A stretch of DNA of 64,000 nt from an uncultured SAR86 cluster bacterium (GTDB taxonomy: Bacteria; Pseudomonadota; Gammaproteobacteria; Magnimaribacterales; D2472). The notes under the pieces were generated by a model. That model did not search any database. It saw only the letters and a list, made by a program, of their open reading frames with translations, and was not told the origin of the DNA. Shown here piece after piece: positions 16,564-57,391 of this stretch. The stretch lies in the NCBI GenBank assembly GCA_902594515.1, contig CACJML010000001.1, forward strand, positions 1-64,000, read 5' to 3'. Made by a program: the position numbers and the translations under genes. Position 1 is the stretch's first letter. Every line of letters starts with the position of its first letter.

Positions 16564-16613
16564 TGGTGCCCAGAGGTGGAATCGAACCACCGACACAAGG
16601 ATTTTCAGTCCTT
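16564..16613 (-). repeat. Partial tRNA-Phe copy: distal attachment site of integrated element
   Basis: Fifty bases identical to 17555-17604, i.e. the 3' part of tRNA-Phe from anticodon stem to CCA. There is no 5' half, so it is not a tRNA gene. At 16591-16619 the arms CGACACAAGGA and TCCTTGTGTCG flank the 7-base TTTTCAG (anticodon loop) as a perfect 11-bp inverted repeat, which has the form of a tyrosine-recombinase core site. Confidence 0.9.
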
Positions 16614-16658
16614 GTGTCGAAGTCGTAAACCCATATAAATATTGCGCTTAAGTGCATA

Positions 16659-17481: not shown

Positions 17482-17490
17482 TTAGTTTTT

Positions 17491-17524
17491 ATGAACACTA
17501 AGATCAGTGTTCATAAGTGTTCAT
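17491..17524 (+). repeat. Right set of GTGTTCAT sites (arm-type-like)
   Basis: ATGAACAC (inverted) at 17491-17498, then GTGTTCAT at 17507-17514 and 17517-17524. It has the same unit and count as the left set, with the inverted copy facing the element interior at both ends. Confidence 0.6.
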
Positions 17525-55881: not shown

Positions 55882-56472
55882 TTATAAAAAATCTGGGATT
55901 TCTCTGAGAGCTTCTTTTCCAAAAAATACCTCTTCATTTAATATAAAAGTAGGCACTCCAAAAACACCTGCATCAACTGCTTTTTGTGTATTCTCGATAA
56001 GTTGCTGTTTGATCTGATCGTCACTTGTTAGCTCGAGAATATCTTTTCCAGGGAGATTTTTTTTAGTTAAAAACTCTTCTAAGATTTCTTTATCTCCAAG
56101 ATTGACCTCTTCTTCCCACATACCTTTAGCAACTACATCAATGTACTCTTTTTCACAATCCAGCTTTTTTGCTGCCAGAAGACCTCTTTGAATAGTCACA
56201 GTATTAATTGGGAAATGAGGATTAAGCTTAAATTCTGAAATTTTATGGAACCTCATGAACCTGTCCATCTCAATATTCATGTAACCCGATTTGTTTGTTA
56301 TTTCAGCAAATGCCATCCATGGAGGCTGATTATTAGTGAGTTTAAATATGCCGCCTAACAAGCAAGGCAGGTATTCAATTTCTACATTATGCTTTTTTTC
56401 AAACTCAGGAATAACTCTATGACACAGGTATGCATTGGGACTGGCAATATCGTAAATAAAAGTAATTTTCAT
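55882..56472 (-). CDS. DsbA-fold 2-hydroxychromene-2-carboxylate isomerase-type protein
   Basis: Thioredoxin/DsbA-fold protein of 196 residues, with the N-terminal YDIASPNAYLC segment typical of HCCA isomerase (NahD) and kappa-type GST relatives. The helical middle (AKKLDCEKEYIDVVAKGMWEEE) and FGVPTFILNEEVFFGKE with a cis-proline VP follow. These enzymes use glutathione on aromatic or ring substrates; the real substrate is unknown. It is divergent from the SDR, with a 25-bp palindrome in the 61-base gap, so both are probably controlled by one repressor. Confidence 0.85.
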   Translation of the reverse strand: MKITFIYDIASPNAYLCHRVIPEFEKKHNVEIEYLPCLLGGIFKLTNNQPPWMAFAEITNKSGYMNIEMDRFMRFHKISEFKLNPHFPINTVTIQRGLLAAKKLDCEKEYIDVVAKGMWEEEVNLGDKEILEEFLTKKNLPGKDILELTSDDQIKQQLIENTQKAVDAGVFGVPTFILNEEVFFGKEALREIPDFL

Positions 56473-56482
56473 TATGGTTACA

Positions 56483-56507
56483 GATTATGATTGTTATAAT
56501 CATAATC
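56483..56507. promoter_or_regulatory. Perfect 25-bp palindrome in divergent promoter region
   Basis: GATTATGATT and AATCATAATC are exact reverse complements around a 5-base centre, in the 61-base gap between two divergent genes. A consensus TATAAT (56495-56500) lies inside it, so a bound regulator would block the promoter of the SDR gene and perhaps the other one. The regulator is not encoded in this window, as far as I can see. Confidence 0.75.
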
Positions 56508-56533
56508 GATTTAAACATAAATGAGGAACGTAA

Positions 56534-57391
56534 ATGAGTTTAGCCAATAAAGTCATATTTATTACTGGGGGCAGCAGAGGCATCGGTCTTGAGATCGGGA
56601 AGAGAGCTGCTAGAGACGGAGCAAAGGTTGTTTTAGCTGCAAAAACAGCTGAACCTCATCCAAAACTTCCTGGAACTATATTTACGGCAGCTGAAGAAAT
56701 TATTGAAGCAGGAGGAGAAGCATTACCACTAATTCTAGATGTTCGAGACGAAGAAAATGTTCTCAAGGCAGTTGAAGAAACGGTCTCTCATTTTGGAGGG
56801 ATTGATATTTGTGTAAACAATGCTTCTGCTATTTCACTAACTAAAACGCCAGATACGGATATGAAACGATATGATTTGATGCATCAAATCAATGGAAGAG
56901 GAACCTACTTGGTTAGCAAATACTGTATTCCTCATCTGAAGAAATCCTTAAACCCCCATATTCTTAATTTAGCTCCACCTTTGGATATGAAAGCAAAATG
57001 GTTTGGACCTCACTTGGCTTACACCATGGCAAAATTTACGATGAGTATGTGTGTGCTTGGTATGGCTGAAGAATTAAAGGCTGACGGGATTGCAGTAAAT
57101 GGATTATGGCCTAGAACCGCTATTGCAACTGCCGCAGTAAAAAATGTTTTAGGCGGTGAGGAATTGATGAACATTTCAAGAAAGCCTGAGATTATGGCAG
57201 ATGCTGCTTATAAAATTTTTATCAAAGACTCGAAAGAGTTTACAGGTAACTTTTGCATTGATGACTTAGTGCTGCATGAATCAGGTGTTAAAGATTTTAC
57301 AAAGTATGCTGACGTAAGTTTTGACAAGTTAGCTCCTGATTTCTTTGTACCTGATGACACGCCTTTGCCAGAGGAAATTAAAAATAGCTGA
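56534..57391 (+). CDS. SDR oxidoreductase, HSDL2-like
   Basis: Short-chain dehydrogenase of 285 residues with GGSRGIG (11-17), NNAS near 96, and intact catalytic Y173/K177-like YTMAK. The C-terminal VNGLWPRTAIATAAV segment is shared with hydroxysteroid-dehydrogenase-like protein 2 and bacterial relatives, many of which act in lipid or sterol-like metabolism. Substrate unknown. It is preceded by a GAGGAACG ribosome site and by the palindrome. The amgK-like frame begins inside its 3' end. Confidence 0.88.
   Translation: MSLANKVIFITGGSRGIGLEIGKRAARDGAKVVLAAKTAEPHPKLPGTIFTAAEEIIEAGGEALPLILDVRDEENVLKAVEETVSHFGGIDICVNNASAISLTKTPDTDMKRYDLMHQINGRGTYLVSKYCIPHLKKSLNPHILNLAPPLDMKAKWFGPHLAYTMAKFTMSMCVLGMAEELKADGIAVNGLWPRTAIATAAVKNVLGGEELMNISRKPEIMADAAYKIFIKDSKEFTGNFCIDDLVLHESGVKDFTKYADVSFDKLAPDFFVPDDTPLPEEIKNS

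Follow-up and report, generated by a model that had tools for sequence, protein, structure and literature searches.

In divergent promoters, the operators of TetR-family repressors are 15-28 bases long and cover the -10/-35 region of divergent genes. In the genome of a gammaproteobacterium placed by its relatives in the SAR86 cluster, a perfect 25-base palindrome, GATTATGATT-GTTAT-AATCATAATC, with 10-base arms and a 5-base centre, was found in the gap between two divergent genes, one isomerase-like and one encoding an SDR oxidoreductase. Positions given without a contig refer to the window, which was the whole stretch of 64,000 nucleotides analysed. The palindrome resembled the TetR-family operators of divergent promoters (tetO, AcrR/QacR type) in being a near-perfect inverted repeat with an odd centre, whereas it differed from them in having no adjacent TetR gene, no counterpart at the TetR genes of its own genome and only one copy. 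It was like the MarR-family operators in being AT-rich and in lying over a promoter, and unlike them in that no matching site was found upstream of one MarR-type gene of the genome (MarR2) and no inverted repeat of at least 7 upstream of the other (MarR1). The GAT/ATC repeats and the AT-richness were shared with the Fur box (GATAATGATAATCATTATC), but the spacing and the letters did not fit, and the Fur-like palindromes of the own genome were found to be TGAGAATGATTATCATTCTCA. A Fur or LexA site was rejected because the Fur-like and LexA-like palindromes of this genome carry different letters, and a Rho-independent terminator was rejected on account of the low GC content, the divergent location and the absence of a GC-rich stem followed by a T run. 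An inverted repeat of a length suitable for a TetR/MarR-type operator was found to overlap a promoter, and neither an adjacent regulator gene nor a site at a regulator's own promoter was found with it. The palindrome is a common and ordinary kind of feature. The features of the locus were as follows.

55882-56472, minus strand: GST-kappa / 2-hydroxychromene-2-carboxylate-isomerase-like gene, 196 aa, DSBA-like thioredoxin fold (Pfam DSBA, 1.3e-26)
56473-56533, no strand: divergent gap of 61 bases, invariant in five species of the genus
56483-56507, no strand: proposed operator, the palindrome GATTATGATT-GTTAT-AATCATAATC, exact in G000, G001, G002, G004 and G006 only
56491-56501, plus strand: core TTGTTATAATC, holding the extended -10 promoter TGNTATAAT for the SDR gene
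56524-56527, plus strand: GAGG, likely ribosome-binding site of the SDR gene
56534-57391, plus strand: SDR oxidoreductase of the PRK08278 / HSDL2-like subfamily, 285 aa (NF006133, 444 bits against a cut-off of 250 bits)

The isomerase-like protein was found to have GST kappa (1r4w, 4e-9), which is mitochondrial, and HCCA isomerase (2imd, 3e-7) as its best solved relatives, both of them distant, and no match to it was found in NCBIfam. The SDR protein matched the HSDL2 structure 3kvo at 1.1e-96, and its gene clearly belongs to the PRK08278 / HSDL2-like subfamily. A role of the pair in degrading an aromatic or lipid-like compound, which had been proposed in the preliminary description, was found to be unsupported and a mere guess from distant homology. 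In the literature on SAR86 regulators and on the isomerase-like/SDR gene pair nothing relevant was found.

The 61 bases of the gap were exactly the distance between the two start codons. The palindrome within it and the TATAAT were both found as originally described, the latter at 56495-56500, where it overlaps the palindrome. Upstream of the TATAAT stood TG, at the spacing of an extended -10 (TGTTATAAT, 56492-56500), and the sequence upstream of the SDR gene was found to contain at these positions an extended -10 sigma-70 promoter, TGNTATAAT, with a weak -35. The opposite strand of the core contained TATAAC, a possible -10 of the isomerase-like gene. In the own genome TATAAT was enriched 11.8-fold upstream of genes.

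At up to 3 mismatches, the palindrome was the sole match in the window (shuffles expect 0), and its exact form was found once in the own genome of 1.36 Mb, where the 3-mismatch matches elsewhere numbered 2, as with the reversed-pattern control, both in coding sequence. Of inverted repeats whose arms reach 10 or more and whose centre is no longer than 8, the window contained 6, compared with 0-2 for ten Markov shuffles. Also observed in the window were CGACACAAGGATTTTCAGTCCTTGTGTCG and TTATGAACACTAAGATCAGTGTTCATAA, perfect inverted repeats with arms of 11 bases, at 16591-16619 and 17489-17516, and a perfect 20-base palindrome, TGATTTGATGCATCAAATCA, was observed inside the SDR coding sequence at 56872-56891, probably by chance under coding constraint. 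Such a palindrome as that of the gap was expected in 0.28% of random 61-base gaps of the same composition, and over the 162 divergent gaps of the genome 0.7 were expected and 3 were counted; the count excludes the one at 56483-56507, since the SDR gene was absent from the underlying gene call. The palindrome was therefore improbable in its own gap, though across the genome it did not greatly exceed chance; it is notable for that gap, yet weak evidence taken alone.

Seven genomes of the genus, one per species, were compared. The exact palindrome was found in five of them, always at the gap of the isomerase-like/SDR pair. Conservation gave support independent of the chance estimates: none of the 61 gap columns varied among these five species, whereas nearby third codon positions varied at 28%, so that the gap is constrained; the 3 kb around the gap contained 283 variable columns. 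The sequence of G001 contains Ns, so that its divergence is underestimated. Short gaps of this genome were conserved in general, with 12 of 182 columns varying in three neighbouring gaps in the five-species comparison. Since the entire gap was invariant and not the arms specifically, the conservation may reflect the promoters alone, and the palindrome, being without sequence variation, does not allow paired changes of the arms to be assessed. In G005 the SDR gene was not detected and the isomerase-like gene was found with distant relatives only, which makes this genome uninformative on the palindrome. In G003 (L106, equivalent to L012) the two genes were again found to diverge, across 61 bases that aligned without gaps, the palindrome being absent. 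The core TTG-N-TATAATC was kept in register in this gap (11/12 identical, shuffle p ~0.001). The retention of the core and not of the palindrome indicates that the SDR promoter core is old and the palindrome a lineage-specific addition; from these sequences, the palindrome is judged to be young and local to its lineage.

In the sister lineages L005-L011, the gap was found to be 103-126 bases long and to contain, in place of the palindrome, a common inverted repeat TTGCAT-N14-ATGCAA with a varying centre. An extra gene on the SDR strand was found between the isomerase-like and SDR genes in L013-L028, L040 and L078. The short gap beside the isomerase-like gene contained a GTAAAG element in the L013-L028 group and L040 (L021 and L022 having TATAAAG/TTAAAG instead); in L078 it contained the inverted pair GTAAAGTT/AACTTTAC, which resembles the recurrent palindrome ATGTAAAGT-NN-ACTTTACAT; likewise, the GTAAAGT element of L013-L028 and L078 resembles half of this recurrent SAR86 palindrome. 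Conservation at orthologous pairs, on which the preliminary description had made its reading depend, was thus partial: the palindrome was identical in five species of the genus and absent in G003/L012 and L005-L011.

No second intergenic copy with up to 2 mismatches was found in 107 family genomes. The 2-mismatch matches in the family were three, all inside genes, namely glycosyltransferase-like genes (L207, L208) and another long gene (L209). As a yardstick, the palindrome ATGTAAAGT-NN-ACTTTACAT of the own genome was found to recur in 20 of 106 family genomes with 0 for a control pattern, so that a recurrent operator would not have been missed. The regulon that had been suggested is therefore unsupported, there being a single site per genome and none intergenic elsewhere, and the scan of the own genome for further copies gave none beyond chance. 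Perfect copies of ATGTAAAGT-NN-ACTTTACAT were observed at three places (G000:C2:174383-174402, C2:107757-107776 and C4:32189-32208), one of them lying close upstream of a membrane-protein gene, after which comes a 64-aa HTH_3 (Cro/CI-type) regulator, likely the cognate repressor.

The absence of a regulator from the neighbourhood of the palindrome was confirmed. The survey of regulators covered the TetR and MarR families, and the own genome was found to contain two genes of the MarR type and, of TetR matches, three genes above the cut-off and two weak ones. No GATTATGATT-like site was found in the upstream regions of TetR1-5 and MarR1-2, the best matches for the TetR genes and MarR2 reaching only 11-13 of 20 positions, and all seven were rejected as site-linked regulators for want of a matching upstream site. 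TetR3 and the weak TetR match C2:236505 were found to have upstream palindromes of their own with other letters. Before the weak-TetR gene, by about 10 bases and in a divergent gap, the palindrome ACTATTGACA-N7-TGTCAATAGT was observed at G000:C2:236391-236417 and is a likely autoregulatory operator. Overlapping ATGTTTACAGCGTAAACAT and TGTTTACAGTGTCAACA repeats were observed in G000:C1 upstream of a TetR gene at 133278-133415 and are likely an autoregulatory double operator.

The palindrome has an even chance of being a single-copy, lineage-specific operator over the promoter region of the two divergent genes, bound by an unlinked dimeric repressor. A homodimer, its gene lying at another place in the genome, would bind both GATTATGATT arms and cover the SDR extended -10 TGTTATAAT together with the -10 of the isomerase-like gene that overlaps it, and both genes would be off until an effector releases the repressor. 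The operator would overlie the SDR promoter and probably also the isomerase promoter. An operator is supported by the chance of only about 0.3% that such a gap contains perfect 10-base arms, by the 61 invariant columns and by the rejection of a terminator; the arms also flank and overlap the core TTG-N-TATAATC, and the other intergenic palindromes of the own genome were recognisable operators (LexA-like, Fur-like, and one beside the weak TetR C2:236505). Counted against it are the single site per genome with none near any regulator gene, its absence in G003/L012 and L005-L011, the 0.7 such palindromes that chance would give over the divergent gaps, and the invariance of the whole gap in a genome whose short gaps are conserved in general. 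Control of both genes by a dimeric repressor, as proposed at the outset, is still the most likely reading, the palindrome lying over an extended -10 in a gap invariant in five species; its assignment to TetR or MarR is less secure, no related site having been found upstream of any gene of either family in this genome.

The main rival, somewhat doubtful but substantial, is that no dedicated repressor exists and that two divergent promoters overlap, with -10 elements formed by almost identical base pairs (TATAAT on the plus strand, TATAAC/TATGAT on the minus strand), the symmetry being accidental in an AT-rich gap. The gap would then be conserved because all of it is promoter, and RNA polymerase at either gene may shut out the other. 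This would agree with the core, and not the arms, being common to G003/L012, with the roughly 0.7 palindromes that chance would give over all divergent gaps, and with a single copy free of any regulator association. The arms, however, run far beyond any -10 element, a perfect palindrome becomes no more probable when the TATAATC core is kept fixed (0.23%), and the 61 invariant columns out of 61 exceed the neighbouring gaps.

A role of the palindrome as nucleic acid, either as a DNA cruciform or, if the isomerase-like gene has its promoter at 56508-56533, as a hairpin in the 5' leader of that gene's transcript, is very improbable. The strand gave a folding energy of -8.6 kcal/mol, better than the -2.9 kcal/mol of shuffles (z -3.75), but since any perfect palindrome must fold, this z-score does not count as separate evidence; the AT-rich stem is weak, with -6.4 kcal/mol on its own, no U-run terminator follows, and SDR transcription from the TATAAT at 56495 would start beyond the palindrome. 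As to the unlinked repressor of the operator reading, a specific candidate is TetR1 (G000:C5:97873-98472), present in the better-assembled carriers G000, G001, G004 and G006, absent from the palindrome-free, one-contig G003, and lying in a gene run with a thioesterase-like gene and an MFS-type transporter (read from the sequences) that is compatible with small-molecule metabolism. It is nevertheless improbable: no GATTATGATT-like site lies upstream of TetR1 or its gene run, and TetR1 also occurs in G005, a genome in which no SDR gene was detected. Its absence from the carrier G002 is uninformative at 59% completeness, and the presence/absence pattern rests on one informative contrast. The same-strand run at G000:C5:96275-101374 was observed to contain thioesterase-like, lipase-like, MFS-type transporter, TetR1, small-protein and MATE-type transporter genes.

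Seen across the SAR86 lineages, a wider reading, which is unlikely, is that the promoter of an old divergent pair was repeatedly re-wired with a different symmetric element each time, namely the palindrome in one genus, TTGCAT-N14-ATGCAA in L005-L011 and GTAAAGT in L013-L028 and L078, the regulator being swapped several times. If true, this would mean repeated replacement of a regulator in a regulator-poor genome. The gain from the present locus is small, consisting of one candidate operator without its regulator, together with a useful comparison in which a promoter core outlasts a palindrome and the same gap holds different elements across lineages. SAR86 bacteria, though abundant in surface seawater, are difficult to culture, and operator predictions are for this reason among the few handles on their few regulators.
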